Assembly (NCBI GenBank): GCA_963556495.2
Contig: OY747717.1
Location: forward strand, 1,319,001 to 1,383,000
Direction: 5' to 3'
From: Valencia hispanica
Taxonomy: Eukaryota; Chordata; Actinopteri; Cyprinodontiformes; Valenciidae
Length of the DNA: 64,000 nucleotides
The translations under genes and the position numbers were made by a program. Each line of letters opens with the position of its first letter. Positions within the stretch are counted from its first letter, which is position 1. Positions 21,231 to 51,999 of this stretch are shown here, one piece after another. The notes under the pieces were generated by a model. It searched no databases. It had not been told where the DNA came from and worked only from the letters and a program-made list of their open reading frames with translations.

Positions 21231-27906
<6,676 letters not shown>

Positions 27907-29170: not shown

Positions 29171-29214
29171 TATAAAGAAAGAAAGGTACGGAGTGCAATG
29201 GGTCAAAAAGTAAC

Positions 29215-29515
29215 ACCCAATAATCTGGATTATTTAGATTTTCATAAAAAACAAAGTATGTGTCCATGTTAAAAATGTATTAATAAATGTCACAGTTTCA
29301 AACTAAATATTAGGTTTGTGAGTTATGTAGCTTGCTAATTACATATTTTGGTTTAAACTGTGACATTTATAGATAATGTGGTTCAAAAAAAAAAAGAAGT
29401 GACTTGGAAAAATGAGCCCCCATGTTTTTCTCTTATGACAGGCTAAATAACCCAAATTATTGGATGTTGTATTTTTGGCTGTGTAACTACACCATAGACT
29501 GTATTTCCAGTTCAC
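29215..29515. mobile_element. TAGC foldback family, copy 1 (short)
   Basis: It contains the family end signature in decayed form (TAATAAATGTCACAGTTTCA at left, TTATGACAGGCTAAATAACC near 29436) around a very short interior. See the copy at 30405-33585 for the full structure. Confidence 0.5.
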
Positions 29516-30404
29516 AGCGAGCGCTTTCCAAGAAAGGAGGTTCTGTGCCAAAAATCGACATGGTAGTGGTAGCATCATGCTGTGGGGCTCATCTTGAGTT
29601 CTCCTAAAATGATCCACTGATCTTCCCAAAAGTCGGTTCTGTGCAGGAACCCGACCAGTTGAAACAAGCTCTACCCAGAACGATGCCTTCCAGACTTCCC
29701 TGGTTTACTGAATAAAACGTTCCTTCTGGAAACTTCTGACCAAACCGGTTTCCTCAGCAGGACGATTCTTGGTCTTTGAGCGCGGCGTTCAGACAGGATT
29801 TATCTGTGTGTGAGGGAATTGTCGCAGCACCTCCGGCTCTCCCTTCCCTTCCCTTCCCTCCCCTCGGTTTGTGTCACGCCGCAGCTTCCCTCAGATGATG
29901 GATTGCTATTTTAGTTCCAGAGTCGCTCCGCTGTCACTCCTGCTGAAGAGGAGGCAGAGTGTGTGTGCCGACAGGGATGACAACAAGCGGCAGAAATTAG
30001 AAAGCAATCCAACGGACAGATGGGCCTCCGAGTGCTGGAGCCACCTGCATGCAAATAGACCTGCAGCTCCGAACCCGGCCTGGTGATGGAGGCTGGAGAA
30101 CTCAGAGCGGACATTTGGGTCATCTGATGGTTTGTTTGGTCCAGATTGGACAGGTAGAACCGTCACTTTGAACTCAGAGCGGTTTGTTTGTGGCATAGAT
30201 GGATGCGTTCCTTAAAGCCGCTTTAATATGAATTCAGGTGTATTATTGAATGTGTGACATCACAGAACTGGAGCTGCAAAATAAGCAACAAAATGACTCC
30301 AGTCCTGATTCCTTCCTACTGTTTTCTCAGTTGGACAGAAGTTCTTGACGTTCTCTAAAATGGTTTTGATCAATAGTTCTCCAGACTTTCTGAAGATTTT
30401 CTCA
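29516..30404. other. TE-poor interval, candidate regulatory block
   Basis: No gene. 29880-30080 is unique-looking and of balanced composition, and includes an octamer-like ATGCAAAT near 30050. A CCCTTCC run lies near 29840. Conservation cannot be judged here. Confidence 0.3.
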
Positions 30405-33400
30405 TGGGATGCCGTTTGTAAAGTCACACAACTTTGAAACTTTAACAACAATGCTTTGGGTTATTTAGCCGGTCATAAGAGGAAAAATAGGGGTTCATTT
30501 GTCAGTCATATTATCTTCTAAAGTTTATAAACGTCACAGTTTATAACTAAAAATATTTACCTAGCAAGCTAAACTGGCCAGCTATAGCTTTGAACTAAAT
30601 GCTTAACTCAGAGCTAAATATTTAGCTAATATGCAAATTTACTTGCCGGACTATCAAAATAAAAGCTAGTTCTGCAAACCTCTACATATACTTCTACTGC
30701 TGGTGCATCACCGTTGCTTTAAATCCATCGGTTAACGTCTGTATTGCGGTTAAAATGGCTTCGCCTACGTTTTAAGCAGAAATGTTGGAAAAAATAAAAG
30801 GTGATTTAGCCTATATTCTGGTAGTCCACCTCTGGTTTTAGCAAGTATATTTGCAAGTGTAAACATTTAGCTCAGATCTAAATGTTTGTTCTACGCTAAA
30901 TGTTTAGCTAGCTAATTTAGCTTGCTAGCTAAAAGGTTAGCTTTAGTTCAAAGCTAAAAGGTTAGCTTTAGTTCAAAGCTAAATATTTAATTTCTAAACT
31001 AAATATTTAGCTAGCTAGTTTAGCTTGCTAGCTAAATGGTTAGCTTTAGTTCAGCGCTAAATATTAAATTTCTAAACTAAATATTTAGCTAGCTACTTTA
31101 GCTTGCTACCTAAATGGTTAGCTTTAGTTCAGCGCTAAATATTTTATTTCTAAACAAAAATTTTAGCTAGCCAATTTAGCTTGCTAGCTAAAAGGTTAGC
31201 TTTAGTTCAAAGCTAAATATTTAATTTCTAAACAAAAAAAGTTAGCTAGCCAATTTAGCTTGCTAGCTAAAAGGTTAGCTTTAGTTCAGCGCTAAATATT
31301 TTATTTCTAAACAAAAAAATTTAGCTAGCCAATTTAGCTTGCTAGCTAAAAGGTTAGCTTTAGTTCAAAGCTAAATATTTAATTTCTAAACTAAATGTTT
31401 AGCTAGCTAATTTAGCTTGCTAGCTAAAAGGTTAGCTTTAGTTCAGCGCTAAATATTTTATTTCTAAACAAAAAAATTTAGCTAGCCAATTTAGCTTGCT
31501 AGCTAAAAGGTTAGCTTTAGTTCAAAGCTAAATATTTAATTTCTAAACTAAATGTTTAGCTAGCTAATTTAGCTTGCTAGCTAAAAGGTTAGCTTTAGTT
31601 CAGCGCTAAATATTTTATTTCTAAACAAAAAAATTTAGCTAGCCAATTTAGCTTGCTAGCTAAAAGGTTAGCTTTAGTTCAAAGCTAAATATTTAATTTC
31701 TAAACTAAATGTTTAGCTAGCTAATTTAGCTTGCTAGCTAAAAGGTTACCTTTAGTTCAGCGCTAAATATTTTATTTCTAAACAAAAAAATTTAGCTAGC
31801 CAATTTAGCTTGCTAGTTAAAAGGTTAGCTTTAGTTCAAAGCTAAATATTTAATTTCTAAACTAAATGTTTAGCTAGCTAATTCAGCTTGCTAGCTAAAT
31901 GGTTAGCTTTAGTTCAGCGCTAAATATTTTATTTCTAAACAAAAATTTTAGCTAGCCAATTTAGCTTGCTAGCTAAAAGGTTAGCTTTAGTTCAAAGCTA
32001 AATATTTAATTTCTAAACTAAATGTTTAGCTAGCTAATTTAGCTTGCTAGCTAAAAGGTTAGCTTTAGTTCAGCGTTAAATATTTTATTTCTAAACAAAA
32101 AAATTTAGCTAGCCAATTTAGCTTGCTAGCTAAAAGGTTAGCTTTAGTTCAGCGCTAAATATTTTATTTCTAAACAAAAATTTTAGCTAGCCAATTTAGC
32201 TTGCTAGCTAAAAGGTTAGCTTTAGTTCAAAGCTAAATATTTAATTTCTAAACTAAATGTTTAGCTAGCTAATTTAGCTTGCTAACTAAAAGGTTAGGTT
32301 TAGTTCAGACCTAAATATTAAATTTCTAAACTAAATATTTAGCTAGCTAGTTCAGCTTGCTAGCTAAATGGTTAGCTTTAGTTCAGCGCTAAATATTTTA
32401 TTTCTAAACAAAAAAATTTAGCTAGCCAATTTAGCTTGCTAGTTAAAAGGTTAGCTTTAGTTCAAAGCTAAATATTTAATTTCTAAACTAAATATTTAGC
32501 TAGCTAATTTAGCTTGCTAGCTAAAAGGTTAGCTTTAGTTCAAAGCTAAATATTTTATTTCTAAACAAAAAAATTTAGCTAGCCAATTTAGCTTGCTAGT
32601 TAAAAGGTTAGGTTTAGTTCAGACCTAAATATTAAATTTCTAAACTAAATATTTAGCTAGCTAGTTTAGCTTGCTAGCTAAATGGTTAGCTTTAGTTCAG
32701 CGCTAAATATTTTATTTCTAAACTAAATGTTTAGCTAGCTAATTTAGCTTGCTAACTAAAAGGTTAGGTTTAGTTCAGCGCTAAATATTTTATTTCTAAA
32801 CAAAAAAATTTAGCTAGCCAATTTAGCTTGCTAGTTAAAAGGTTAGCTTTAGTTCAAAGCTAAATATTTAATTTCTAAACTAAATATTTAGCTAGCTAAT
32901 TTAGCTTGCTAGCTAAAAGGTTAGCTTTAGTTCAAAGCTAAATATTTTATTTCTAAACAAAAAAATTTAGCTAGCCAATTTAGCTTGCTAGTTAAAAGGT
33001 TAGGTTTAGTTCAGACCTAAATATTAAATTTCTAAACTAAATATTTAGCTAGCTAGTTTAGCTTGCTAGCTAAATGGTTAGCTTTAGTTCAGCGCTAAAT
33101 ATTTTATTTCTAAACAAAAATTTTAGCTAGCCAATTTAGCTTGCTAGCTAAAAGGTTAGCTTTAGTTCAAAGCTAAATATTTAATTTCTAAACTAAATGT
33201 TTAGCTAGCTAATTTAGCTTGCTAGCTAAAAGGTTAGCTTTAGTTCAGCGCTAAATATTTTATTTCTAAACAAAAAAATTTAGCTAGCCAATTTAGCTTG
33301 CTAGTTAAAAGGTTAGCTTTAGTTCAAAGCTAAATATTTAATTTCTAAAATAAATTTTCAGCTAGCTAGTTTAGCTTGCTAGCTAAATGGTTAGCTTTAG

Positions 33401-33585
33401 TTCAAAGCTAAATATTAAATTTTATTAACTAATGTTTTTGAAACTATTACATTTATGAATAAACAAATAACATGAAGACAAATATGACTTAGAAAAATGG
33501 AGCCCCATTTTTTTCTCTGACAGGCTAAATAACCCAAATAATTGCTGTTTATTTTTGACTGTAACTTTACAAACGGCTCCCCATG
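30405..33585. mobile_element. TAGC foldback family, copy 2 (largest, with expanded array)
   Basis: The left end starts CATGGGATGCCGTTTGTAA and the right end is the inverted CATGGGGAGCCGTTTGTAAA. Each end continues for about 150 bp through TTTGGGTTATTTAGCC, ATGGGG and TTTATAAA(T/C)GTCACAG-type blocks. The element is flanked on both sides by TTTTCT, a possible target duplication. The interior has a conserved module (ATCCATCGGTTAACGTCTGT, near 30725) and then the 2.5-kb repeat array. No protein is encoded. The family is not one I can name; long inverted ends plus a 6-8 bp duplication would suit a hAT-like foldback element. Confidence 0.7.
30890..33420. repeat. Higher-order satellite array of ~78-bp TTAGCTAGC monomers
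   Basis: About 32 monomers of ~78 bp share TTTAGCTTGCTAGCTAAA and GGTTAGCTTTAGTTCA. Two main types alternate: A (AATTTCTAAACTAAATGTTT) and B (TTATTTCTAAACAAAAAAAT), giving a ~157-bp dimer repeated several times from about 31340. A third type with CAGACCTAAATATTAAATTT appears near 32310, 32620 and 33010, marking a longer-period duplication. The monomer contains many short palindromes (TAGCTAGCTA, AGCTAAATATTTAGCT). Confidence 0.9.
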
Positions 33586-33711
33586 TTTTCTGGGTTGTTT
33601 TGGACGTTGGCTGGTTTTTCCCTCCCTATCAGTTCAGTCCTCATTCGTGTCCATTTTAAGTGGAATGTCTTTTATTTTTGAACTCCAGTTTTCCTCTAAA
33701 GCAATCATTTG

Positions 33712-34329
33712 TACGGTGGCCCTGAAAGGTCACAGCACACAACTTAAGAAAACACATGCAAAAAGACAAAACACAAGCAAATTGTGAAAACATTTTCATC
33801 AAATTGACAACACGTGTGCAGCATTTAGAAAGACTACACAACATAATAGAAAAACACGCTGCAAAGACCACAACAAAACACATTAGAAAAACGCGCTGCA
33901 AAGACCACCACACAAAGGAAGTGTTTCCAGGGGACACTTAAATGTGATGCACACGGCCGGACATGCTTGTTGTTGACACAGATTTCGAGTCACAGCTCAG
34001 TCACCATCTCTGTCCGTCAGTGGTGTTGGAAAACGAGATAAAAAGTAATTGTTTGTTTTTATTTTAACATCGTGATCGCATGATTCAGCCTATTGCAGTG
34101 ACCTGCTGCTGAACTATTGTTAGCCATTAGCCGTGTGCATCACATTTAGATGTCCCCTGGAAACACTTCCGTTGTGTTGTGGTCTATTTGCAGCACGTTT
34201 TTCTAATGTGTTGTGTCGTTTTTCTAAATGCTGCACACGTGTTGTCACATTGATGAAAATGTTTTCTCAATTTGCTTGTGTTTTGTCTTTTTGCAAGTGT
34301 TTTCTTAAGTTGCGTGCTGTGACCTTCAG
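33712..34329. mobile_element. TACGGTGGCCCTGAA foldback element, copy 1
   Basis: Arms of about 200-240 bp (33712-33955 and 34127-34329) are inverted copies of each other around a ~170-bp loop. The left end begins TACGGTGGCCCTGAA; the right end lacks these last bases. The left arm holds an extra internal duplication with CGCTGCAAAGACCAC. A second member with intact ends is at 59091-59500. No coding capacity. Confidence 0.8.
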
Positions 34330-34366
34330 AAAAATTTATAGTAAACATGATCCAGGTTCACAGCTA

Positions 34367-35050
34367 CAGTGGGGCAAAAATTATTTGGCAGCCAACGATT
34401 GTGCAAGTTGTCCCACCTAAATAGATGAGCGAGGTCTGTAAATGTCCTCATGGTCTCAGTCGTTGTGTCCTATGGCAAGACACTTCACCCCTCTGCCTAC
34501 TGGTGGCGCCAGTGTTCGGCAGCCTTGCTTCTGTCAGCTTCTGTTAGCTCTGGCTACAATGGAGCTTGGCATCACCAGTGTGTGAATGAATGAACGACGG
34601 GTTCTCAAGGACTAAATAAAGAGCTATACAAGTACAGGCCATTTACCATATCATAGTGATACCTCAACTATGAGTGTAAAAAAAAAAATCAAGATGATTT
34701 TTAAGAATTTATTTGTATAATGGTGCAAAAAATAGTATTTGGTCAAGAACAAAAGTTCACCTCAATCCTTTTTAATGTAACCTTGGTTGGCAGTGACAAA
34801 GGTCAAAGGTCACCTGTAGGTCTTCACCAGGTTCTCACACCCTGTAGCTGGTATTTTGGCCCATTCCTCCATGCAGATCTTCTCTAGAGCTGGGATGTTT
34901 TGGGACGTTCATCTCCCTCCACAGATTCTCTACAGGATTGAGATCTGGAGACTGGCTAGGCCGCTCCAGGACCTTGAAATGATTTTTACGTAGCCACTTC
35001 TTCATTGCCTAGGCGACGTGTTTGGGATAATTGTCATGCTGGAAGATCCA
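34367..35050 (-). mobile_element. Tc1-like element fragment, interrupted by a SINE
   Basis: After a TA, the end CAGTGGGGCAAAAATTATTT matches the Tc1-like element at 61636 (CAGTGGGGATAAAAAGTATT). Minus-strand transposase 3' sequence follows from about 34780 to 35050 (CCAGTCTCCAGATCTCAATC-type block in complement). The SINE at 34440-34655 is inserted into it. The element is cut off at the right where a LINE tail begins. Confidence 0.7.
34440..34655 (+). mobile_element. SINE (fish type) inside a Tc1-like fragment
   Basis: GGCAAGACACTTCACCC, GGTGGCGCCAGTGTTCGGCA, ATCACCAGTGTGTGAATGAA and AAGAGCTATACAAGTACAGG followed by CCATTTACCAT occur in the order of a widespread teleost SINE. Confidence 0.75.
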
Positions 35051-35054
35051 TCTT

Positions 35055-35270
35055 TATTTGTATGGCACACTGTCAGCAACGACGCAGTTCAATGTGCTTT
35101 GGGCGATTAAGGAATAAAATAAAAGCAGCAATACAACTAAAATAAAATTAAAAGACACAACATCGAAGACATAAAGAACATTAAAACATACTACAGTTAT
35201 GACATTCCAGCTATTAATCACTTTGCAGTTTTCTGGAAGTTTGTTCCAGATAAGAGGAGCATAGAAACTG
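35055..35270 (-). mobile_element. L2/Rex1-like LINE 3' fragment
   Basis: TTTTCTGGAAGTTTGTTCCA and GATAAGAGGAGCATAGAAAC near 35230 match the larger copies at 48958 and 58358. Only the 3' end survives. Confidence 0.65.
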
Positions 35271-35465
35271 AAAGCTAAATGTTTGCTTGGTAACTAAAAT
35301 ATTTAGTTTCAAATTGTGACATTTATAAATGAATAAATAACATGGACACAAATATGACTTTGAAAAATGAACACATTTCTTTCTCTTATGACAGGCTAAA
35401 TAACCCCAGTTATTGCAGTTAGTTTTTGACTCTGTAACTTTACAAATGGCCGCCCATAGTTCATT
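35271..35465. mobile_element. TAGC foldback family, right half only
   Basis: GTGACATTTATAAATGAATA, TATGACAGGCTAAATAACCC and AACTTTACAAATGGCCGCCC reproduce the right end of the family. No left end is found, as the LINE fragment abuts it. Confidence 0.65.
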
Positions 35466-37007
35466 AATAGGTGAGTAATCCAGGTGAGTTTATTGCTGCA
35501 GGAGTTTTATTTGGTCAGGTTTTTTAAAGAGGATCCCAGAAGAAACCCAGAAGGAAGGCAAGGTAAGTAAGTAAGAGGCTGCTGACTCCTGCATACAATT
35601 GACTCTGAAAGTTCGTCAGGCAGCTCCTTACATCCAGGTGTCCAGTAATGTTCCTGCTGAGGAATGAACCACCTGAGAACCGTGACCCATTTATTGGGTC
35701 TCCTGCACGGCTTGTTGCAAACTGCGAACAGGACGACTTCTGGGGCTTTCTTTCAACAACGTCTGTCTTCTTACCACTCTTCCATAAAGGACAGATTTGA
35801 GGAACCCTCCAGGTTCTCCTACCTGAGCTGTGGATCTCTGCAGCTCCTTCAGAGTCTAGGTGGACGTCCATGTCCTGGTAGGTCTGCAGGGTCCTAATGC
35901 CCTCATCACGACACAGAGGAAGACTCTTACTAACTAGAGGGCATCTGACTGCTCTGGATTTCTTTTAGGGGTGTCAGAGGTGGAATACAAATGCATGCCA
36001 CACATTTCAGATTTTTTATTTAGAAAATGTTAATTTTTAATCCTGGTCCCAGTTTTTTTCTGTACGTTGTGTTGGTTGACAGTAGAATGGAGGGAGGTCC
36101 AGGTGTGAGTGCCTCTGCAGAGATCTGAGTGTGTTTTTCTTCTGTCGGACTGAAACTCTTCCTGCAAACTTTTATATTATTATTGTTATTATTATCATTC
36201 CTGTGCTGCTCCTGTTTTACATTTGGAAAGCTTGGGGGCAGAAGCAGCCAGGCGAGGCCTCAGAATACTCCTTTTCCTCCTCTCCAACACCTCCTCAGCT
36301 CCAGCCAGCGGCGGCTGTTTTTGGCTGATGGCATCCGGCGTGCAGGGCAGCAGACATGAAAGGGGTCCTGTCACTCACTGGAGGCGGCCATATGCGTGCC
36401 TGCGTGAGCTCTGTGCCAGCTGCAGGCAGCCTCTGCCAGAAGACATTAGGGAAGCAGCAGGGTGTCATTAAGGCGGCTCCATGATTGATTAACCGTAAAT
36501 CTGCAGCATGAGACCTACAAATCCCTGCTTCTACCTCCCCACACACACCTTCACATCTACACAGCCTCACAAAGAGAGCAGCGGGCTGAGGTGGGGATGG
36601 AGACAGAGGGAGCCCCCTGCAGATATGACTGTGTAATTGCGTTAGCTGCCCAGTAGGAATGGGATGAGCTTGGGTTGTTCTGCGATGAACACAGTGAGGG
36701 GCTCCCATCATGCCATAAGAAGCTCTGCAGCCTCCGGCTCCCCGACACATTTCACATGCAGCGACTCAAAGAGGCGGTTTATCCCGACTGCTTCTACTGT
36801 GCTGGAACCTGAACATGAGCCACTGGGAGTTTTTACTGCTAGCATCTGTAAAAATCACAGAAATGAACAGAATCTCAACTGAAGACGGAGACCAAGTAGC
36901 TGTTGATGTGGGGGGGGGGGGGGCTTCTGACTCTGATGAGACAAGGAAACTTTATTGATAAACATGATTATTGTAGTAAAGTCACAAACACCATAACTGG
37001 TAAATGG
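35466..37007. other. No gene; unique-looking and repeat-remnant sequence
   Basis: 35800-36080 shares CTGAGCTGTGGATCTCTGCA with a copy near 57985 and is probably an old transposon remnant. 36380-36880 is TE-poor and contains ATTAAGGCGGCTCCATGATT, a candidate regulatory block. A G run lies at 36910-36923. No coding frame with family resemblance. Confidence 0.35.
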
Positions 37008-37155
37008 GCTGAACTCACAGCGCTTTTCTAGTCATGCTGACCACTGCAGCCACATTCCCCAATTCATACACAAATATGTAGTGCAGTAGGGAACTTGGGG
37101 TTAAGTGCCTTGCCCAGTGGCACATCGACATGTGACAGGCTGGAATCGATCCCAC
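37008..37155. mobile_element. Short interspersed repeat
   Basis: AGCGCTTTTCTAGTCATGCT, CACTTGGGGTTAAGTGCCTTGCCC-type text and GGAATCGATCCCACAAGC follow a common fish short repeat with a tRNA-like B-box region. Orientation is not certain. Confidence 0.5.
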
Positions 37156-37164
37156 AAGCCTAGC

Positions 37165-39568: not shown

Positions 39569-39652
<84 letters not shown>
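39569..39652. repeat. (GATA)n microsatellite
   Basis: About 21 uninterrupted GATA units, ending where the left end of a TAGC foldback copy begins. Confidence 0.97.
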
Positions 39653-39653
<1 letters not shown>

Positions 39654-39654
39654 A

Positions 39655-40605
39655 ATTAACAGCAATAATTTGAGTTATCAGGTAATTTAGTCATAAGAGA
39701 AAGAAAATGGTTCATTTTTCAAAGTCATATTTTCACCATTTTTTATTTATACATGTCACAGTTTCTAATTAAATATTTTGTTTACAAATTAAAGATTAAG
39801 TTTGAAGCTAAATATTTAGCTAGCGAGCAAAAGTGGCTTGTTAAATATATAGCTTTAAAAAAAGACCTTAACTCAAAAAGTTTGAAAAGCTGTCTTCCCA
39901 CGAACCTCTATATAACCTCCTCCTGCAGTAAACGTCTATATTAGTGTTAAAACAGCTCGTCCTACGTTTTCAGCTGAAATCTTGGATCTAAACATTTAGC
40001 TCTGAGCTAAATGTTTAGTTTGAAGCTAAATATTTATTTAGCTTGCTAACTAAGTATTTAGTTCAAAGTTAAATATTTAGTTGACAAACTAAACATTTAG
40101 CTCAGAGCTAAATGTTTAGTTTGAAGCTAAATATTTAGCTAGCCAGTTTAGCTTGATGGCTGAATATTTACTTAGCTTCCTAACTAAGTATTTAGTTCAA
40201 AGTTAAATATTTAGTTTACGAATTAAATATTTAGCTTTAGTTCAAAGCTAAATATTTAGCTAGCCAGTTTAGCTTGATGGCTAATTGAAGCCAGCAAAAT
40301 ATTCAGCTTCAAACTAAATATTGAGCTTGCTTAAAAAAAAACATAAATAAAAAATAATAATATTGAGCTTCCTAAATAAGTAGTCGAGTTTAAAGTTAAA
40401 TATTTAGTTTTTTTAACTGGATATTTATCTGTTTACTTTGCTAGCTAAATATTTAGTTTACAAATGGTGACATTTTTAAATGACTACATAAGATGGACGC
40501 AAATATGACTTTGGAAAATGAACCCCCATTTATTTATTCATGACAGGCTAAATAACCGAAATGATTACTGTTACCTTTTGACCGTTTATCTACAAACAGC
40601 TTCCC
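39655..40605. mobile_element. TAGC foldback family, copy with unexpanded interior
   Basis: The left end starts within the signature at TTAACAGCAATAATTTGAGT, having lost its first ~40 bp next to the GATA tract. The right end is complete to CAAACAGCTTCCCATA. The interior has a dozen or more TTTAGCTAGC-type blocks but no regular array, and may represent the state before expansion. Confidence 0.65.
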
Positions 40606-42059
40606 ATATCAGCCTGTTAGCTCAAATCTACCAGCCTAAACAACATTGAGATTAATCATATTTGGATGTTGTTCAGATTTAAAGCCCAGTTTTCTCCGCC
40701 TCCTCTGATGAAATGTGACCCGAGGGGTCGCAGCTCCTCCCGACGACGGACACAGAGTGAAGATAAAACTTTCACCTTTACAGAAAGTAAATGTATGCGG
40801 TGAAAGAGGAGCGTTTGTTTTGGTGACCTCTGGTTTTGTCCCTGATGGGTAAACACGCTGGCGTTGAATGCTAAGCCGCAGCTCCAGGTCCGGGCTAAAA
40901 GGTCCAAAGACACATGCAGTGAAAGTATGGCGGTTCTGTTGGCGGGTCCAGCTGGCCACAGACATCACAGCTGATAAACATCTGCACTGACATTTTCCTC
41001 TCCTTTCAGAAAGGAACAGCCTCGCTGACATGAGCTAAAGGCTTCAGAATCAAGTCAAATTGGTCTTTTTGACAGCAGTCAGGGAGAGAGGAGAGGACAG
41101 GGAGCGTCTCAGATTGGGGACAGATCTGAACAAAGAGATGGACCAATAAGATCTGATCGCTATGAGCTCATCTGCTGATATAATAAAGGCCACATTCTCT
41201 CCTGATCTGCAGATCTGTGTGTGGAAAGGGTGGAGAGCAGAGGCCTTGTGTGCCATTAGGCAAGGCAGGTATTTGCTTGGGGCCACCAGGGGCCCCCAGA
41301 GGTCCAACAAACTTTGCACCAGTTCAGAACCCCAACAATGGGGAGATGGTAAAAAGTCTGCATTGACACTGTGGGCCGTATCACAAGCCTTCCCTCTCTC
41401 ACTATCTGTGCCAGTGTGCGGTGCAAAGTAAATAAACACGAGCATGAGCTAAGCTCCGTCATGAAACGCACTTATCCCTCTAGAAGTGAAAAAAAATGGA
41501 AGAAAAGAAAACAAGACACAGTTGAGTGTGATAGCTTAATGTGGTCTTTTTTTAGCTCAAAGTATTTGGCTATTTATGCCATTTTAACTTAGCTGTTAAT
41601 GCTTGTTTGGTGATTAGCAAGAATGGTTTACATAAAATAAAAAACAGTCCACTCAAACAACAGCTCGCCCTTTTTTTATCAAATTAAAATCTTGTTAAGA
41701 CAGCTAAGCTAAGAAGGCTAATTGAATTTATGTGCAATAATGCTTAGTACTACTAATACATAAAGACCCATGTTGTGCAGTACCTGTGAAGTTGCAGTAA
41801 GTGTTATGGTTTTACAGTACTAAGTACATATTTTTCTATTATGCAAAATGCAAAAGTAATCAGAGTATTCTACTGTTTTTGAACTAAATTAAACTAATGT
41901 TGCATTTGTAATACAAATTTTAAAACAGCATCATTTATGTGTTGCTCTTTATATACTTTTGTAATTTCTTTGTTCAGGGTCATTAAGAAAGTTTTTACAC
42001 CTAGAGTAAAATATGTTAACGCGTTTGAAGCGTCATGAACGTCAGGTTTACACGTGAAG
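40606..42059. other. No gene recognised
   Basis: Mixed sequence. 41250-41345 includes GGGGCCACCAGGGGCCCCCA, GC-rich and partly self-complementary. The remainder is AT-rich. No repeat end or coding frame is supported. Confidence 0.35.
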
Positions 42060-42302
42060 TCAATGCAGAAGCAACATTCTCACCTGAGTTAACAAGACGA
42101 TGACTGAAATGATCTCAGCAGGTCCTTTAATGACAGCAATGAAATGCAGTGGAATTTTCATGGCAAAGAAGGACTATGCAATTCATCTGATCCCTGTTCA
42201 TTACATTCTGGAGTAAATGCAAATTGCTGTTATAAAAACTTAGGCAGCAACTTTTCCAATTTCCAATATTTATGTAATTCTCAAAACTTTTGGCCACGAC
42301 TG
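42060..42302. mobile_element. Tc1-like terminal fragment
   Basis: It ends CTCAAAACTTTTGGCCACGAC then TGTA, the inverse of the CAGTCGTGGCCAAAAGTTTT end known from fish Tc1-like elements, and borders TA at 42303-42304. The transposase part is missing. Confidence 0.6.
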
Positions 42303-42304
42303 TA

Positions 42305-42600
42305 GATTCTGGGATGGAGCTCCTGGGTTTCTGGTCACTTCTTTGAGCTTCCCGCTCTGACCTTGGCCTGAATCTGCTGGGACGTCTGAGATCTTCTCCT
42401 CTCTGGAGGACTTTAGATGGTTTGGAGATGACCTTTGACCCTTCACAAACTGATGGACAGCTACAGTTGCATCTCCAAGGTTATTGCTGATGTCTTTCCA
42501 TCTTGGCATCATGTCAGATCACACCTGGATGCTCCAGAGCAGCAAACTGACAGAACTCCTGCTCTCCTCTCTGTGATGCATTTAGTCAGGATTCACAAAG
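42305..42600. repeat. ~300-bp dispersed repeat, copy 1 (inverted copy at 60485-60790)
   Basis: CTTCCCGCTCTGACC, GCTGGGACGTCTGAGATCTT, CTCTCTGGAGGACT and CACACCTGGATGCTCCAGAG occur here and, in reverse complement and same order, near 60500-60780. Class unknown. Confidence 0.6.
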
Positions 42601-42750
42601 TGAATGTTGCTTTTTCTTCCTGAAGTTAGGATGGATGTAGATTTTAGTTATTTGATCTTCATTACTGAAACCATCACATTGTTCCCTTAGTGGTTCTTTA
42701 CCTTGGTTCTGCAAAGGTTTGAGTTCTTTTCTGCCTTTAGTGCAGGAACC

Positions 42751-43551
42751 TATGGAGGGGAGTGTTTTTAAAGTTACACAGTCAAAAGTTAGCAACAATA
42801 ATTTGGGTTATTTAGCCTGGCATAAGTTAAAACTCATATTTGCATAAATGTTATTTATTCATTTATAAATGTCACAATTTCGAACTAAATGTTTAGTTTA
42901 CAAATTTTTTATTTAGCTCCAAACTAAACATTTAGCTTATCAACTAAATATTTAATCTACAATCTAAATATTTCACTTCGAAATAATAATATTTAGTTAG
43001 CGAGCTAACTTTTAGCTAGCAAGCTAAATATTTAGCTCAAAGCTAAATGTTTAGCTAGCAAGCTAAACGGGCTAGCTAAATATTTAACTAAACATTTAGC
43101 TCAGAGCTAAATGTTTGGTTAATATGCTAATGTACTTGCCGAGAAGAGGAAATGGACTATCAAAATAAAAGCTGGATCTTGCAAACCCTCTGTACAAGCT
43201 GCTGGCAGACCAAATGTCTCCTCTTCATTATTGTTTATTTTGGTCCCAACATGTCCAACATTTCAGTTTTAATGACAACACAGACATTTACTGATGGATT
43301 TACTGTATCAGTGATGCACCAGCAGCAGGAGGTTTTATAGAGGTTAGCAAGACCCGGCTTTTTTTTGATAGTCCAATTACTGTTCTCGGGAAGTGAATTA
43401 GCGAAATATTTAGCTCTGTGTTAAATGTTTAGCTCGAAGTTATATATCTAGCTAGCCAGTTTAGCTTGATAGCTAACCCCATTGATTTCTCTTATGACAG
43501 GCTAAATATTGCTTTTAACTTTTGACTGTGTAACAAACAAACAGCTCCCCA
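42751..43551. mobile_element. TAGC foldback family, copy with clear target duplication
   Basis: It begins TATGGAGGGGAGTG with AAAGTTACACAGTCAAAA and ends ACAAACAGCTCCCC. AGGAACC flanks both ends (42744-42750 and about 43553-43559). The interior carries a short run of TTAGCTAGC blocks and the conserved module with CAACATTTCAG and GATGGATTTACTG. Confidence 0.7.
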
Positions 43552-43559
43552 AAGGAACC

Positions 43560-45079
43560 AAGCAGCAGAATTCACCTTCAGACCCACATATCTATTTTAA
43601 TCTAGTTTATTTGTTATCAAACAGGTATTTATGTTCCACAGTAATAAAATATTCAGCTGCTCTGTGAGAAAGATCTTTCTGGACATGTTGTGATTGTAAT
43701 GAGATTACTGACGCCTCTATGTGGGAGTGAGGTGGCTGTGGATGCAGCAGTCAACAGAAGGATCCCCAACGTTGGAGAATTTTAACAGCTTTAATTATTT
43801 CGCGCCCTGCTGACGGCTGAACCTTAAAAAGAGACTTGAAACGTTGCAGAAACGCAGCGTTCCTCCTTCCTGAGCTGCACACTCATCTGCTCGCCCAGCT
43901 GCTTCCTCTCATAACGCCTCGCTGGCTTTTGATGCTCACAAGCAATTTCCTACAGATGACTATCACATTACATCAAATTAAATTGCATTACCTCACACCC
44001 AGCGAGGAGGTTTATTTACTCAACAGATGGCAGCTTTATCCCGCCGTAATATGAAACGTGCCTCCACGGGTCCTGCAGTGTTTCCTCACTTTTTTAATGA
44101 CTTTATTCTTAAATTAGGAGACAACTAGCTCATATATTTTAAGGTCAACGGAGTGAATTCAAGGTGAATGTTAAGCTTCAGTTATCCTCTCTAGAGTAAG
44201 TAACAGGCAGGATTTATGGGTTTATTCGACGTTCATTTGCAGTGATCAACATCGGGGCTGAGTCCGTTTCAGTAAAACAAGGTTGGGTAAATCTGGAGGG
44301 AATGTTTTTTAAGGAGTGGGGATGAAAACATGTTCCAGGAAGCATGATGCATGTTTTCCCTCCCGTGAATGGTCTCTTTGTGGCCTCGATCGGCTCAGCG
44401 TGTGAACGCCTCTCTGAAGTCTCCTGACCTGCTCTCTCTGTCCGAGGGGCTGCAGACGCTGCCTGGCAGATAAAGACGGAGGAGTGGAAATAATGACCTC
44501 CTCAGAGAGCGAGCTGCCTTATTATCTCCTCTTTAGTCACAGACGGCTCGGTCGGGCCTGCCGGGGTTCAATGAGACGCTTGTTCTGGGCAGGAAGATCT
44601 GCGGCGGCGTGACAGGTGGACGCAGAAAACTACGTTTCCTCTCCTCGGACAGGGAAAATCCTTTCTGCTGATTCTCTGCTTCAGACCAGATCATCAACAC
44701 AGAGCTCGTCTGGACCACCGGGTCTCATGGGGGCCCGGTTCTGGTCGCAGCAGTGAAAAAAGACACGACACACAGTCGGACATGAATCAGTGTTTATGGA
44801 TCTATTCCCTATTTCCTCCATCATTTAAAGCTGATCTGCAGGCTCCTGCTTTTCATAAATAATGTTCACATTTATCAATAAGAAACATTTCTGTGGATCT
44901 GTTTCAAGGCCACAATCTCAAGCTTCTGCTTCCTTGGAAAAAAAGATCTCTGGAGGAAAATGGTGGACCTCCACCAGTTTCCAGATGGCTGACGGTTCCA
45001 CGTTCCTCTGTTCTACCGGCTACATGCAGACGTCACAGGAACGTCCAGCCATCGTACGGATCAGGAAGGAGACGGGTTC
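43560..45079. other. No gene; candidate regulatory blocks
   Basis: 43790-44060 is TE-poor, with AACAGCTTTAATTATTTCGC and ACATCAAATTAAATTGCATT. 44380-44720 is GC-richer and unique-looking. No coding frame is supported. An enhancer role is only a guess. Confidence 0.3.
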
Positions 45080-45717
45080 TGGGTCCCAGAGACGAACCGG
45101 TTCTGGTTTGAACAACAGCTGAAGACCTGGTGAAGATGCTGCTGAAACGAGTTCCTGTACCAACATGGACTGAAAGGCCGCTCAGAGAGGAAGAAGCCAC
45201 GACTCCAGAAGCGTCATAAGAAGCCAGTTTACAACAAAAAAAAAAGCACTTGGACACAAAGACCTTCAAATTTGGAGACGTGTCCTCTGGTCTGATCTGA
45301 GTGTTTGGTCACGATGAGCGTCGCTGCATTTAGAGGAAAAAAGGAGGATGGTTAAAGCCTGGGAACACCATCCTAACTGTGAAGTACGGAGGTGGCAGCA
45401 TCATGCTGACTGGAGCTCTTCACAGAATAAATGGCATCAAGAGGAAATCCAGAGAAGAAGTTAAACTTCTAGAAGGACGACGTCCCTCAGCAGACCTCTG
45501 GATTGGTTAGAAACTGGTCCAATGGGGAGGTTGCTGAAAATGTGTGTGTGTGAGCAAACCTGGTCCAGTTCTACCGGTTCTGTCAGGAGGAATGGGCCAG
45601 AACTCCAGCAAACTGTGGTCAGAAGCTTGTGATTCTGACGTTTAGGACATAAAGACGATTCTAATAATCCAAAATTTAGCTGAAACAGGAAAGTTTTAAT
45701 CTGATTTAACCATCAAA
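45080..45717 (+). mobile_element. Tc1-like transposon remnant
   Basis: GGAGACGTGTCCTCTGGTCT, GTGAAGTACGGAGGTGGCAG followed by CATCATGCTG, and CTGTCAGGAGGAATGGGCCA occur in the order of a fish Tc1 transposase gene, with large deletions. Not coding. Confidence 0.65.
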
Positions 45718-46103
45718 CTATGGAGTGCCGTTTGTAAAGTTACACAGTCAAAAACTAACAGTAATAATTTGGGTTATTTAGCCTGACATAAGAGAAAGAA
45801 ATGGGGGTTCATTTCTCAAACTCATATTTGCATACATGTTATTTATTCATTTATAAATTTTAGTGAAAAGCAGATGCAGGAGAGAGAGAAGCAGAATGAA
45901 GAGGAGGAAACCGAAGAAGATAAAAGTACAAGCCTAAAACAGAAGATGAGACTAGACAGAAAATAATCTTAAATGCATAAGGTAAGACTAACACAGAGGG
46001 GTAACCAAGTAAATAAAGAAGAATAAAGAAGCACAAGAGAAACTCAAAGTAAAAGCATGAATGAATATAACAGGAAGGAGAGGAGGAAAAAGAACATGAT
46101 GCT

Positions 46104-47287
46104 CTTGAGAGTTTAAATAAAGTTACCTGGACTTTTTTTGTTGTCTTGAAAACATTTCGTCTCTCATCCAAGAAGCTTCTTCAGTTCTGAAAACTGGATC
46201 AGGAGAATCAGATTGATCAGTCTAAGGTTAAGGCTCACTAATGGGGGCTATGGTTATACCTAACGAGGCTATCAGGGTAGCGTAAGCTTCTAAGCACTAA
46301 GCAATCTTGGTGATGTAAGAGTCGTTAACAGTGAGCTGCTTTGGTCACATGACTCAATATGTGAGTTTTCCTCCTCTCTCAAACCATCTGTCTTCTCTAT
46401 CAAAAATGTGAACATTATTGTCTTTGAAAGAGTGACCTTTGACCTTTAGATGTAGATGGACTGCTGAGCCGTCCTTTTGTCAGGTTGCTGTTTCGTTTCT
46501 CCAACGTACAGCTCTGAACATTCCTCACTGGGCTGCATACACCTCTGAGCTTGTGTTGGGGTGTTTCGTCCTTAGGATGAACCAGTCTTTGCCTGAGAGT
46601 GTTGCCAGATTCAAAATGCACTGGGATGTTTGGAAAATATCCTTGTTAGTTTCTCAGAGCCTCCAGCCACATATAGGATAACTATGTTTCCCCGTCTCCT
46701 CTTCTCCTCCCCTACACCGGCCTGAGTCGACTGTTTCCTTGATGCTTTGACACAACGTCCAATTAGGCTATCCACAAGTTAGGAGTGCCCTCTTTATATG
46801 TTTGTGTTCTTTATCCTTTCCTTCTCTCTTTGTGGGGACATGTTCAGCTCTGTGTTGCAGTGTACCGATGACCGATTCCAGTGGGTGGTGTGAGTCAAAT
46901 AGTAGGTACTGGTCCGTATGTGTGGGTTTCCTAAAGACTTCTGTGATAAGCGGTTTAAGATTCCCCCTTTCAAACACACACAAAGCAGCCTTGAGTTGCC
47001 TACCCAAGAAGTTTCGCCAAAAACTCATACGTGTGACCAAAACAGCACATAGTTACATAACTGGGGTCGTTTCATCACCAAGACTGCTTAGTGCTTAGAA
47101 GCTTACGCTACCCTGATAGCCTCGTTAGGTATAACCATATTCCATTAGTGGGCCTTAACCTTAGACTTATAAATCCGATTCTCCCAATCCAGTTTTCAGA
47201 ACTGAAGAATCCTCTTTGATGAGAGACGAAACGTTTTCAAGACAACAAGAAACGTCCTGTTGCCTTTATTTAAACTCTCAAGAACAC
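46104..47287 (-). mobile_element. Penelope-like retroelement with inverted terminal repeats
   Basis: The minus strand encodes a decayed reverse-transcriptase tail, [20 protein letters not shown] (about 46950-46860), with [20 protein letters not shown], then a GIY-YIG-type endonuclease stretch, QHKLRG ... VYAAQ ... EECSELYVGETKQ (about 46570-46480). A 1-base shift splits the endonuclease. The flanks, about 46104-46335 and 47065-47287, are inverted copies of each other (shared blocks: GAGAGTTTAAATAAAG, GAAACATTTCGTCTCTCATC-type text, AGCGTAAGCTTCTAAGCACT). Inverted terminal repeats are known in Penelope-like elements. 5' truncated; not functional. Confidence 0.75.
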
Positions 47288-47294
47288 AGGATAG

Positions 47295-47662
47295 AAAGAA
47301 ACTCAAATCAGAGAACCATGATCCTAATGTGAGAAATAAAGTGAAACAGAACTAACACAGAGGAAAATGATACAATAAGAAAATAATAAAAAGATCAAAA
47401 CAACCCAAAAACAATGAAACAAAGGTAGAAATGTCTGAGGATCATAACAGTCACTGTTTCACACCAAATAAACAAAATATTTAGCTTCGAACTAAACTTT
47501 TAACTCAGAGCTAAATATTTAGCTAATATCTAAATTTACCTGCTGATAAGCAGAAGTTGACTACCAAAATAAAAGCTGGGACTTGTGAACCTGCTGGTGA
47601 GACTGAACGTTTCCTCTTCATCGTCGTTAATTTTCCTCCCAACATTTCAGCTAAAAACATAG
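47295..47662. repeat. Inverted duplication, arm 1
   Basis: This ~368-bp segment is repeated in reverse complement at 50870-51238 with only a handful of mismatches by eye. It starts with GAAACTCAAATCAGAGAACC and includes the interior module of the TAGC family (CAACATTTCAGCTAAAAACA). Confidence 0.9.
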
Positions 47663-47915
47663 CTAAGCTAAATATTTAGCTTGCTAGCTAAATATTTAGC
47701 TTGCTAGCTAAATATTTAGCTAAGCTAAATATTTAGGTTGGAGCAAAATATTTCATTTTTAACCTAAACATTTAGCTTTCTTACTAAATATTTATCTGAA
47801 ACTGTCACATTTATAAATAAAATGGATGCAAATATGACTGAATAATGAACCTCAATGAATCCAAATTATTGCTGTTAGTTTTTGACTTTGTAACTTTACA
47901 CACGGCAGGAGCCCA

Positions 47916-48957
47916 TATCAGGCTGCAGCAGAAACTGCTTGTTGTTTATAGAGGGCAAATATCTGGTTTCAGCTGAGTATAGTTTATGAAAGAAATGAAA
48001 TAAAACATTAGACATGGCTTTAAACGTTGCTGAGTCACCATAAGGTGCACCAACCTGAAGGATGATGCATCTCTCAGGTCTTTAAGCTGCTGCCTATCTG
48101 CTGCAGATATCGGAGCGTCCTCTGTCCTCGGACACATTCATCAGATTATTTAAGGACACAGTTCACGCCAGCGGACCTAAGGCAGGAGAACAAATCAGTC
48201 AGAACCTCTGAGAGACCTCCAGAAAACCATCTGAACTGCTGAACCAGAGATTACAAGCTGCTTGGAGGGGAACCAGAAGGAGGCGAGGGCTGGATCGGGA
48301 CTTTCTGCACAGTTCTGGGGGAGCTGTCGGCCACCAGGTGCAGCATCTACGTCAACAAATGACTCTCAAGCTATTCTCAGCTCTGTGTCCTCATTAAAAC
48401 ATTCCCCAAAGTGCCCCTCCATAAATCGCCCTTGGCTTCATGTTTAGGTGTCTAATTAGGCAGCTCCCTTCAGCCTTGGTCCTGGCTTGTGTGTCGGTTT
48501 AATGAGGCAATTAGAGATATTAGGGATATTGTATCTGGACCATCAGGAGGCTTTTTCGGGGAACTGGGAAGTGTGGTGGAGGCTGTGGGGGCATTGAGAG
48601 GACAGAGGTGTAGGGTTGCAGGTATGTTGGTCCTCTGCAACTAAGAAAACAAAGTGAGCTGATTGAGGAAAGGTTAGAGAAACACACCTTAATTCAGCTT
48701 CTGTGGAAAAGTAATAAAATAATATTGAAAGAACAGCAGAGTTGGGCTCATGTGGTTGAACAAAGGCTGGGGAGAAACGTCTCAGGTTCCCATTAAACCC
48801 AGCAGAAGAGAATCTGTGGCTGGGATCAGTAAACCTTCTGTCTGAACAGGAACAAGGAACACCATGAAGACGTCCGATCTTCTTGTTTTATCGATCTAAA
48901 CGAGAACGGTGTGAGGAAGCAGCCGGTTGCTGGTGCTACAGCTGAATTTCCCCAATG
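47916..48957. other. No gene; TE-poor
   Basis: 48330-48560 includes GTCTAATTAGGCAGCTCCCT and TTTAATGAGGCAATTAGAGA, homeodomain-type sites in unique-looking sequence. No repeat or coding frame is supported. Confidence 0.3.
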
Positions 48958-49690
48958 GCGAGGCGAGGCGATTTTATTAGTATAGCAACACTTTCAACAA
49001 CAAGGTGATTCAAGCTGCTTTACATGATTAAGAGGTAAAATAGAAATAGCAGTAAAACACAGACAAAGCATATAAAGTAAAAACAGCAATAAAACATAAA
49101 ACACACACAAAACATGATACATGAAATGATTACTCTAAAGCAGCTCTAAACAGAAACATTTTTATTTATGATTTAAAGGAACTCCGTGTTTCAGCAGTTT
49201 TGCAGTTTTCTGGAAGTTTGTTCCAGATTAGAGGAGCATAAAAACTGAAAGCTGCTTCTCCATGTTTGGTTCTGATTCTAGGGATGTTGAGTCGACTGGA
49301 ATTAGAGGACCTGATTGGTCTGGGGGGGGTTGCTATAGTAACAGTAGATCTTCAACATACTTTGGTGCTAAGCCATGTAATGATTTATAAACTAGTAGAC
49401 GTATTTAGAAGTCTATTCTCTGAGCTACAGGGAGCCAGTGTAAGGACTTTAGAACTGGGGTGATGTGCTCTACTTTCCTGGTTCTAGTGAGGAACACGAG
49501 CAGCAGCGTTCTGGATCAGCTGCAGCTGTCTGATTGACTTTTTAGGCAGACCTGTGAAGACGCTGTTGCAGTAATCAATCCGACTAAAGATAAACGCATG
49601 GATGAGTTTTTCTAGGTCCTGTTGTGACATCAGTCCTTTAATCCTAGAAATGTTCTTCAGGTGATAGAAGGCTGTGGGACAATAAAGGAT
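48958..49690 (-). mobile_element. L2/Rex1-like LINE C-terminal fragment
   Basis: Minus-strand pieces read AFYHLKNISRIKGLMSQQDL, FSRIDYCNSVFTGLPKKSIR, QLQLIQNAAAR and, after a frameshift, LTRTRKVEHITPVLKSLHWL-like text, ending in the 3' tail near 48975. This is the conserved C-terminus of an L2/Rex1-type reverse transcriptase. Confidence 0.8.
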
Positions 49691-50389
49691 TATTTAATTC
49701 TTCTAGCCCCCCTCTTGCTGTCACATGGTTCTCTTTAGGTCATTTATTGGTTCCAGAGGTCAGCCAGTAATCAGGTCTGGACGTGGCTGGTGAAGCAGAA
49801 CCGAATCCTTTTTGCTGGTGCTCGGTTTGGACATGTTGAGAGCGTGGAGAGAGGATATAATATACATATATATATATATATATATATTTATTCTGCAACC
49901 ATCTTAAATCTGCAGTAAAACTGGCCTCATCTTCCACAACTGTGTGTAGATATTCCAGCCTAAACCATAATATTCTGCTTGTTTTGCCTGAGTAGAAGCA
50001 GAAGCGAGCTTCCTGTCGGTGCTGGCCGTTGATGTTTGCAGCTTTTTCTCTGTGACTCACGGCGAGAGTCGAGCGCCGGGCTGCATACTGCATCTGTTCC
50101 TAATTAAAGAGTGCTAATGAAAACCCGTTCTCCTGGTGGGCCTTGTGGGCCCGCTGATGACCAGCCCGGCGTGTCGCCTCCGACGCTCCGTAGAAGGAGG
50201 AGGAGACGACACCTGCAGAACACAGCGAAACGAGCAGCGACTGAAGGTCAGCTGATCTATCTGTCTGTGCTTCATCGCTGCAGAAAAACCCAAACGACCT
50301 TTGACCTGCAGCGGACAGGACTCTGAGCTGTTTCCTTTGGTAAATATAATAATAATACATTAAACAGTTTACCATAAAAATGAATTTTT
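49691..50389. other. No gene; short (TA)n and mixed sequence
   Basis: A short TA tract lies at about 49862-49889. 50010-50330 is GC-richer and unique-looking. Nothing else is recognised. Confidence 0.35.
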
Positions 50390-51999
50390 ATTTAGTTAGT
50401 AAACCAAATATCTAGTTTGCACGCTAAATATGTAGCTTTAATCTACGTATTTACCTCAGAGCTAAATATTTAGCTAATATGCAAATTCACTTGCAGAGAA
50501 GCGGAAATAGATTCTCAAAATAAAAGCTGGGTCTTGCTAACCTCTATGAAACATGCTGCTGTAAATCCATCAGAGGGAAACAATGATTCAGCCTTTATTT
50601 TGGTAGTCCACTTCTGCTTGTCGGCAAGTATATTTGCATATTAGCTAAGCATTTTGCTCTGAGCTAAATATTTAGTTAAAGGCAAAATTTTTAAGCTGGC
50701 AAGTTTAGCTTGTCAACTAAATATTTAGCTAATATGCAGAGAAGCAGAAGTTGACTGCCAAAATAAAAGCTGGGTCTTGCTAACCTCTATATAACCTCCT
50801 GCTGCTGGTGCGTCACCGTTGTTGTAAATCCATCGGTGAACGTCTGTGTTGCCGTTAAAACGTCTCATCCTATGTTTTTAGCTGAAATGTTGGGAGGAAA
50901 ATAAACGACGATGAAGAGGAAACGTTCAGTCTCACCAGCAGGTTCACAAGTCCCAGCTTTTATTTTGGTAGTCAACTTCTGCTTATCAGCAGGTAAATTT
51001 AGATATTAGCTAAATATTTAGCTCTGAGTTAAAAGTTTAGTTCGAAGCTAAATATTTTGTTTATTTGGTGTGAAACAGTGACTGTTATGATCCTCAGACA
51101 TTTCTACTTTTGTTTCATTGTTTTTGGGTTGTTTTGATCTTTTTATTATTTTCTCATCGTATTATTTTCCTCTGTGTTAGTTCTGTTTCACTTTATTTCT
51201 CTCATTAGGATCATGGTTCTCTGATTTGAGTTTCTTTTAATCCGTGTCTAAACGTATGTTTTCCTTCCGGTCGCCCGTGGGTCTCCTGACTGAAAATCAA
51301 AGGAGCGATAAAAGTTATTTTCTGCTTCGCTTTGCCCTGAATCACACATATTCTGTACCTCATTTTAAATGATAACTAATGATGTGCGTTTCCACTGTGT
51401 TTGTCATGTGATTTCTGATTTATTAGCTAGCACTTGAAATCCTCACAGAGACAGAGCTGCTACTTTCCACATTCATGGTGGTTTTCTCCACGTTTAACGC
51501 TCCTTCCTTCGTCCTGGAGGAAGGAGGCGGAGCCGGCTAATCTCACCGCCATTTTTCTTCTTCTTCAGTTGTAGTCCACTAAGTGTTTTCACACAAAACC
51601 TAAAGTAACTTTTGCCGCCTGTTGAAAATGAGCGTTTTCTCTGCATCGAAATGCGTCTTTAAAATTCACGGACATCATGGCGCATTTCAAACGGGATCAG
51701 AAAATAACTTTTATGGCTCCATTGACTCTCATTCTTTTTTTTCATAGTAGGAGGCGACCCATGGACAGGAAGTAGATGGGCGTGTGGCTTAGGCTCCCCA
51801 TCGGCAAGTAAATTAGCATATAAGCTAAATATTTAGCTCTTAGCTAAATGTTTGGTTTGAAACTGTGACATTTATAAATGAATACATAACATGGACACAC
51901 ATATGACTGACAAATGAACACCCATTTTTTTTCTCTCCTCTAACAGGCTAAATAATCCAAATTATTGCTGTTAATTTTGCAGGGGTCTCCTCCTTTTGG
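50390..51999. mobile_element. TAGC foldback family, rearranged copy
   Basis: It contains two interior modules (AAATCCATCAGAGGGAAACA near 50565 and AAATCCATCGGTGAACGTCT near 50828), TTAGCTAGC-like blocks and a right end (51860-51995, TAACAGGCTAAATAATCCAA). The left end is missing. Arm 2 of the inverted duplication (50870-51238) lies within it, followed by about 500 bp of unrelated sequence. Confidence 0.5.
50870..51238. repeat. Inverted duplication, arm 2
   Basis: Reverse complement of 47295-47662, with very few differences. The two arms point towards each other across about 3.2 kb. Confidence 0.9.

Follow-up and report, generated by a model that had tools for sequence, protein, structure and literature searches.

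The DNA analysed here, called the window below, is a stretch of 64,000 nucleotides from Valencia hispanica (assembly GCA_963556495.2, contig OY747717.1), corresponding to C20:1319001-1383000 of the genome searched. It contains the gene cdk9, with positions 27295-27903 matching CDK9 structures at an E value of 2.5e-99, and downstream of this gene a group of repetitive elements with long inverted ends, the foldback family which is the subject of this report. An earlier note on the sequence had placed an unnamed foldback family downstream of cdk9, had counted at least seven copies or fragments sharing inverted ends and had seen none in the first 28 kb. This description was borne out by a BLAST search of the whole 64-kb window with a 166-base terminal-repeat query at E <= 1e-4, which found the repeat at all seven places (Table 1), all of them between 29.2 and 52.0 kb, and nowhere else in the window. 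Two of the seven copies are flanked by perfect 6-bp target-site duplications.

The copies are preserved to different degrees. In the small copy at 29202-29488, which has a self-inverted coverage of 0.61, the terminal repeat is without a match over its outermost 28 and 19 bp. The copy at 45719-47916 has no target-site duplication, with one of six bases agreeing, and in the copy starting at 50390 the right terminal repeat was located at 51844-51978. These two neighbours have in common an inverted repeat whose identity of 97.6% (47284-47662 versus 50870-51247) far exceeds that usually found between copies, and the pair is taken to be the product of a recent inverted duplication or of gene conversion. 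A further inverted-repeat insertion was seen by eye inside the former copy (46100-47300), where similar sequences lie near 46150 and 47230 in opposite orientation. Outside the family, a perfect (AG)n run of 288 bp occupies 23403-23690, shortly before the first cdk9 exon found.

Ends and interior of the family

The genome searched comprises 1.29 Gb in 29 contigs, 24 of them longer than 30 Mb; a contig of 16,558 bp is probably mitochondrial. Further copies elsewhere in the host genome, on which the earlier note had made its case depend, are present: the commonest end found, TATGGGGTGCCGTTTGTAA, has 220 exact matches (109 forward, 111 reverse), and a control with the reversed pattern has none. 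The end CATGGGGAGCCGTTTGTAA given in that note is, with 4 exact matches versus 220, a variant. The terminus was examined in a profile of 48 ends from which eight loci (L001-L008) were excluded, having been picked by their end pattern; most of the remaining loci had been picked because they resembled a 142-base end query as a whole. Conservation begins at T-A-T-GGGG, the first three bases being present in 35, 37, and 37 of the 48 ends, and outside this boundary no position is comparably conserved, the best being a C in 20 of 48. The terminal repeat is about 145 bp long, is common to both arms, and gives the element the ends TATGGGG..CCCCATA. Identity between the arms of one element ranges from 0.785 to 0.986 in 19 elements. 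Homogenisation of arms within elements was considered as a general rule and rejected, as mean identity is 0.862 within and 0.839 between elements; the own partner is the closest arm for 7 of 38 arms, with L091 (0.986) and L014 (0.947) as exceptions.

Target-site duplications were evaluated in 22 end pairs. Five pairs are perfect, and 10 of the 22 agree at five or six of six bases versus 0.15 expected. At a length of 6, 59.1% of the bases match, whereas 200 shuffles gave 26.9% on average and never more than 38.6%, and all other lengths from 2 to 11 fall inside the shuffle range. The position of the terminus was fixed after an inspection by eye of pairs including four of the perfect ones. Without these four, 6 of 18 pairs agree at five or more of six bases, and three pairs added afterwards, exact at both ends and taken from 100 listed places of TATGGGGTGCCGTTTGTAA, agree at 6/6, 5/6, and 3/6 bases.

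Complete families of the IS3EU superfamily have TA..TA termini and usually 6-bp duplications according to the passages cited here from PMC10045372, and the termini of fungal IS3EU read TAYGG..CCRTA in the corresponding passages of PMC12730594. TA..TA termini, a 6-bp duplication, and a terminal inverted repeat (TIR) of more than 30 bp were all three found in the present family, whose ends TATGG..CCATA conform to the fungal pattern. Judged by its ends and its duplication the family fits the published IS3EU signature. The duplications ascribed to Tc1/mariner and Harbinger elements in the text consulted (2 bp TA, or 0-4 bp) are not matched, as the family shows length 6 only. hAT elements usually duplicate 8 bp, but 6-bp duplications are mentioned for hAT6 families in the cited part of PMC12730594, so that length 6 alone does not set the family apart from hAT6; the transposase linked to the family (see below) is of the integrase type. 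In the literature searched the strings of the family were not found in a transposon context, only TTTAGCTAGC alone occurring, in line with the note's failure to recognise it.

Between the arms of about 145 bp, short copies are made up of the palindrome TAAATATTTA and related palindromes, arranged in arrays. A self-complementary interior and folding of the element into one hairpin had both been proposed, and both were confirmed by calculation: self-inverted coverage is 0.24-0.98 in 17 elements, while none of the 10 shuffles made of each exceeds 0.12, and folding gave z-scores of -20.0 (42757-43559, 20 shuffles) and -13.8 (another short copy, 100 shuffles). The spacing of the motif was determined in 46 sequences (L001, L002, L004-L008, L030-L058, L084-L088, and five pieces of the window), leaving out L010-L029, which are contained in L039-L058, and L003 and L009, which lie inside the window. 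They hold the motif at 844 places, most often spaced 20 bp (214), 19 bp (203), or 33 bp (61) apart. The 417 spacings of 19 or 20 bp compare to none at 18-21 bp among the 26 motifs of one shuffled control set. On the plus strand of the window all 35 occurrences of TTTAGCTAGC are within the family; on the minus strand there is one exact match beyond its copies, at 9641.

A fully palindromic example is L091 (C1:47144298-47145515), an element of 1,218 bp with the duplication GTTACC and 46 motif places, which is self-complementary end to end at 87.4% and in its outer 360 bases at 98.3%. Its predicted fold is one long hairpin, the shuffle z-scores covering shorter copies only, and it is probably the youngest of the 19 elements because its arms are the most similar among them. 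Some longer copies are less palindromic, with a self-inverted coverage of 0.26 in L050 and 0.24 in L051, and L047 and L055 hold pieces of retroelement genes. Long inverted arms built from repeats and the capacity to form one hairpin, the structural features of a foldback element, are thus both found in the family. The earlier note was right in calling it foldback; it had missed the TA..TA termini with the 6-bp duplication, the genome-wide spread, the phasing of the palindromes, and the private arrays described below.

Candidate source elements and alternative origins

No transposase was found among the reading frames listed for the family copies examined, which were longer copies and unpaired loci. 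Six open reading frames compared to Pfam gave reverse transcriptase twice, the endonuclease domain of such elements once, a sub-threshold match to DUF3226 once, and nothing in two cases. The profile NF033577 (IS481 transposase) was tried as bait and abandoned. Its 64 scored matches were taken as mainly retroelement integrases, because L061, one of four loci fetched and read in plus strand frames, shows a reverse transcriptase beside the integrase. The profile PF24764 (integrase core, rva_4) yielded 159 genome matches, 150 of 477 candidates being scored, and 126 places were kept from those listed after most apparent second pieces of one gene had been dropped.

The autonomous partner with the same ends which the earlier note had suggested looking for has a strong candidate in these matches, with near-identical terminal repeats lying upstream of a PF24764 transposase. 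A query made from the end of L091 gave ten pairs of a TIR and a PF24764 match within 7 kb versus 0.05 expected, with TIR identities of 87-98%. In nine of the ten pairs the TIR is located 5' of the transposase match in the same orientation, 2.4-6.5 kb upstream. One transposase reading frame, lying within C17:5106500-5108360, was read. It encodes 397 amino acids and matches PF24764 (E 3e-70) and rve (E 3e-9), and a helix-turn-helix match is below threshold. Aspartate 160 and glutamate 250 are invariant in 12 sequences and aspartate 217 is nearly so. The relatives listed, 120 of 2,337, include an Oryzias melastigma protein with 86% identity and one of Nothobranchius furzeri with 80%, as well as others in corals and a nemertean, and HTLV-2 integrase is matched distantly (E ~2e-4). 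An integrase-core transposase is also what IS3EU has in the cited passages of PMC10045372 and PMC12730594.

Facing this transposase is the end of a reading frame with the HECT domain of ubiquitin ligases (E 3e-10). When HECT was searched genome-wide, with 129 of 251 candidates scored, a match was found within 5 kb at 26 of the 126 PF24764 places, convergent in all 26 cases, versus 0.13 pairs expected. HECT and an upstream terminal repeat are both present at C15, C17 (5.1 Mb), C19 (5.9 Mb), C25, and C26, and in the five highest-scoring well-placed pairs the convergent HECT match is at a distance of 526-561 or 885-888 bases between match starts, depending on the strand. According to the part of PMC12730594 consulted, fungal IS3EU with TET/JBP genes carry an alpha-kinase gene opposite the transposase, so that a second gene in opposite orientation is in character; the difference is that HECT here replaces the alpha-kinase or TET/JBP gene. 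HECT together with IS3EU was not found in the literature searched, among the matches listed, nor was the word HECT in PMC10045372 or PMC12730594. As a side observation, the PF24764 matches seem to form several subfamilies, some being interrupted around profile position 103-105 in the way an intron would do it, and many of the HECT-paired places fall outside the subfamily considered here.

These larger elements with matching ends and a PF24764 transposase are the likely autonomous partner. The family is then best explained, with a probability of roughly 0.8, as a non-autonomous foldback derivative of IS3EU-type DNA transposons moved in trans by PF24764 source elements. The integrase-core transposase supplied in trans would cut and join the TATGGGG..CCCCATA ends and leave the 6-bp duplication, and its source would be the larger elements with terminal repeats upstream of the transposase gene, several of them with a convergent HECT gene. 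As the palindromes are 19-20 bp apart, short copies could pair with themselves in many registers; slippage is to be expected in self-pairing DNA and may be how single copies have grown their private tandem arrays. The HECT protein may shield the element from being silenced or may control the transposase. The termini, the duplication length, the phasing of the palindromes, the private arrays, the terminal repeats upstream of the transposase, and its pairing with HECT are observed, whereas mobilisation in trans, an origin of the arrays by slippage, and any role of HECT are inferred.

Several observations weigh against this explanation. Twelve of the 22 end pairs have no convincing duplication. 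No PF24764 match lies within 22 kb of the 206 family positions then known, and none of the 64 NF033577 integrase-type matches within 58 kb of the positions known at that stage. One of the ten TIR-transposase pairs is wrongly oriented, and the terminal repeat of L091 is only 82-83% like that derived from window-type copies. The candidate parents are known by the coordinates of their terminal repeats and domains, their two ends being presumed to belong to one element. The placement in IS3EU is based on the ends, the duplication, and a PF24764 core with conserved D, D, and E, of which the IS3EU lineage is a possible one, and the predicted structure of the 397 amino acid protein is poor, with a mean pLDDT (predicted local distance difference test score) of 49.3. 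HECT matches within 5 kb are lacking at 100 of the 126 PF24764 places, with the same share of HECT candidates scored, and at four of the nine well-placed pairs.

The four well-placed pairs lacking HECT would also agree with an alternative in which the terminal repeats, the transposase, and HECT do not form one element, the foldbacks happening to lie in transposase-rich DNA and being moved by another, unseen transposase. In agreement with this, PF24764 places are dense at the chromosome ends opposite the foldback copies (11, 16, 9, 24, and 60 of 120 in successive chromosome fifths), retroelement-type integrase matches being so weakly (15, 8, 8, 10, and 21 of 62), and the facing terminal repeats around a PF24764 match vary from 13.5 to 53 kb apart, the latter value being found at C25. 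The common order and orientation of nine of the ten pairs at 2.4-6.5 kb, with 0.05 pairs expected, and the nearly constant distance of the convergent HECT match in the five highest-scoring pairs, make this alternative unlikely.

Polintons (Mavericks) are about 15-20 kb long, carry an integrase, and have the ends AG..CT. With candidate parents of 13.5-20 kb and an integrase-core partner transposase, the parents might be Polintons and the window family a non-autonomous Polinton derivative, and the duplication would agree, being 6 bp for Polintons as well in the cited passage of PMC10045372. The family, however, ends in TA..TA instead of AG..CT, and the best family of the partner transposase is PF24764, with the sub-threshold helix-turn-helix match in addition, which renders a Polinton origin improbable.

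Table 1. Coordinates of family copies and associated features in the window, and of candidate parent intervals elsewhere in the genome
Feature	Position	Strand	Basis or remark
Small foldback copy	29202..29488	.	left arm 29202-29311, right arm 29340-29488; terminal-repeat BLAST
Target-site duplication TTTTCT, left	30397..30402	.	flank comparison
Full-length copy, 3183 bp, inverted ends	30403..33585	.	self-inverted coverage 0.91
Private internal array of 31.5 units of 78 bp (alternatively 15.8 units of 157 bp)	30952..33422	.	TRF (Tandem Repeats Finder)
Target-site duplication TTTTCT, right	33586..33591	.	flank comparison
Right arm only	35271..35458	.	terminal repeat 35297-35458 (BLAST); 35271 is the start given in the earlier note
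Copy, left end against (ATAG)n tract, right end complete	39653..40608	.	BLAST, tandem-repeat scan
Target-site duplication GGAACC, left	42745..42750	.	flank comparison
Full-length copy, 803 bp	42751..43553	.	perfect 6-bp duplication
Target-site duplication GGAACC, right	43554..43559	.	flank comparison
Copy with both ends and a large unrelated insertion (by eye)	45719..47916	.	BLAST, flanks
Arm of 379-bp inverted repeat, 97.6%	47284..47662	+	common to two neighbouring copies
Copy with internal inverted parts and an unrelated insertion (by eye)	50390..51978	.	50390 is the start given in the earlier note
Second arm of the 97.6% inverted repeat	50870..51247	-	common to two neighbouring copies
Candidate parent interval, C17	C17:5097034-5110546		facing terminal repeats 13.5 kb apart
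Candidate parent interval, C15	C15:39207321-39224632		facing terminal repeats 17.3 kb apart
Candidate parent interval, C26	C26:36537975-36557641		facing terminal repeats 18-20 kb apart

Chromosomal distribution, tandem arrays, and related elements

The 142-base end query gave 2,817 first-look candidates, of which 40 were scored, and on most chromosomes the best-scoring copies are crowded towards one end. The rich end of a chromosome was set by an end pattern or, separately, by a centre-segment query. With the former definition, the rich half holds 30 of 35 end-query matches and 34 of 36 centre-segment matches, a further 4 and 3 being unassignable. With the latter, 64 of 87 exact TATGGGGTGCCGTTTGTAA ends on C1-C12 fall in the fifth nearest the rich end, among the matches listed (11 of the 98 listed on these chromosomes were unassignable, and 2 listed ends on C14 were excluded). 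The end, centre, and exact-end queries partly match the same elements and hence are not independent, and on C9 the end pattern and the centre query indicate opposite ends.

Two other elements of the window served as controls. An unrelated foldback (33731-33930) is distributed flatly, with 21 of 40 copies on the rich half, and the Tc1 element is equally polar, with 37 of 39. A chromosome bias specific to the family was dropped on account of the Tc1 element, since the bias then belongs to the compartment and not to the foldback family. The local concentration seen in the earlier note is accurate within the window; genome-wide it reflects a chromosome-end compartment shared with the Tc1 element. 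From the positions of the copies, the cluster beside cdk9 belongs to a megabase-scale compartment which occupies one end in most chromosomes, and this family-rich end may be the one away from pericentromeric DNA.

Some further repeats were recorded on the way. The Tc1-like transposase frame of the window (15876-17024, 383 amino acids, DDE_3 and HTH_Tnp_Tc3_2) belongs to an element with 39 other scored copies of 98% identity and a one-ended distribution. The different foldback element at 33731-34330 is spread over chromosome interiors and in other places, such as C27:29.948-29.954 Mb, has tandem arrays of about 74 bp. A 189-bp satellite from the start of C25, possibly a centromere repeat, has its scored copies mostly at C19 4.0-4.3 Mb (C19:4038675-4278304); further ones lie at its C25 site, at 1.5 Mb on C11, and at 59.57 Mb, where C7 ends. 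As a centromere marker it was rejected, two sites being at family-poor and two at family-rich ends.

The private array inside the full-length copy of 3183 bp has no close counterpart among the matches found. A 159-base array query matches at 92-100% along the array itself, and elsewhere alignments of more than 100 bases are at most 84% identical, only short pieces reaching 86-93%. Five further arrays of related sequence were fetched, with units of 63 bp x 23.5 (L084), 73 bp x 17.1 (L085), 72 bp x 5.7 (L087), 71 bp x 4.5 (L088), and 52 bp and related periods (L086), so that periods of 52, 63, 71-73, and 78 bp occur across copies. Terminal-repeat matches adjoin four of the five, and none is recognisable beside L085. 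Palindromes would slip or recombine, so that arrays might start afresh in single insertions. That the whole family is a palindromic minisatellite spread by slippage and recombination without transposition, as arrays of the same palindrome with differing periods and the L085 array lacking recognisable terminal repeats might suggest, is scarcely credible given the sharp common termini, the single duplication length, and the 220 exact ends across the genome, and it is refuted by the duplications for the family though possible for single arrays.

As a foldback non-autonomous family with a palindrome-array interior, the elements differ from IS3EU as presented in the cited passages of PMC10045372 and PMC12730594. 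A parallel in this respect is Tetris of Drosophila virilis, which likewise has foldback non-autonomous copies with internal tandem repeats seeding longer arrays; its arrays grew from TIR-220 repeats, and autonomous copies were not found, as far as the cited part of PMC4079207 goes. The present family differs in its palindromes 19-20 bp apart, its array periods that differ between copies, and its candidate partner. Galileo of the P superfamily in Drosophila has similarly long, internally repetitive inverted ends resembling Foldback but uses a P-element transposase (PMC3573991 and PMC4168063), unlike the 6-bp duplication and the integrase-type candidate transposase found here. Likened by description are the zebrafish miniature inverted-repeat transposable element Angel and Xstir and miDNA4 of Xenopus, which fold back or carry arrays able to become satellites (passage of the review PMC12628747); miDNA4 is a Tc1/mariner element according to the same passage, unlike the present family. 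Also likened by description are the oyster satellites CgiSat35 and CgiSat47, listed as DNA/IS3EU in PMC8268682, which tie satellite DNA to IS3EU, whereas the passage on them mentions no palindrome array.

A wider picture may be drawn tentatively, although it is rather doubtful: animal IS3EU could be two-gene elements with a conserved HECT partner acting against silencing or for transposase turnover, their foldback offspring could be satellite nurseries growing private arrays from inserted palindromes, and parents and offspring could be sorted to opposite chromosome ends.

IS3EU is a little-studied superfamily, and a single fish genome with a nameable foldback family and a probable transposase source makes it directly testable whether trans-mobilisation takes place and whether a DNA transposon employs a ubiquitin ligase. 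The private arrays, with periods of 52-78 bp in one family, represent replicated natural experiments on the origin of satellite DNA. What looks like a local cluster in one window can also be a compartment on the scale of a chromosome, with a distribution common to a Tc1 element and not to a neighbouring foldback.

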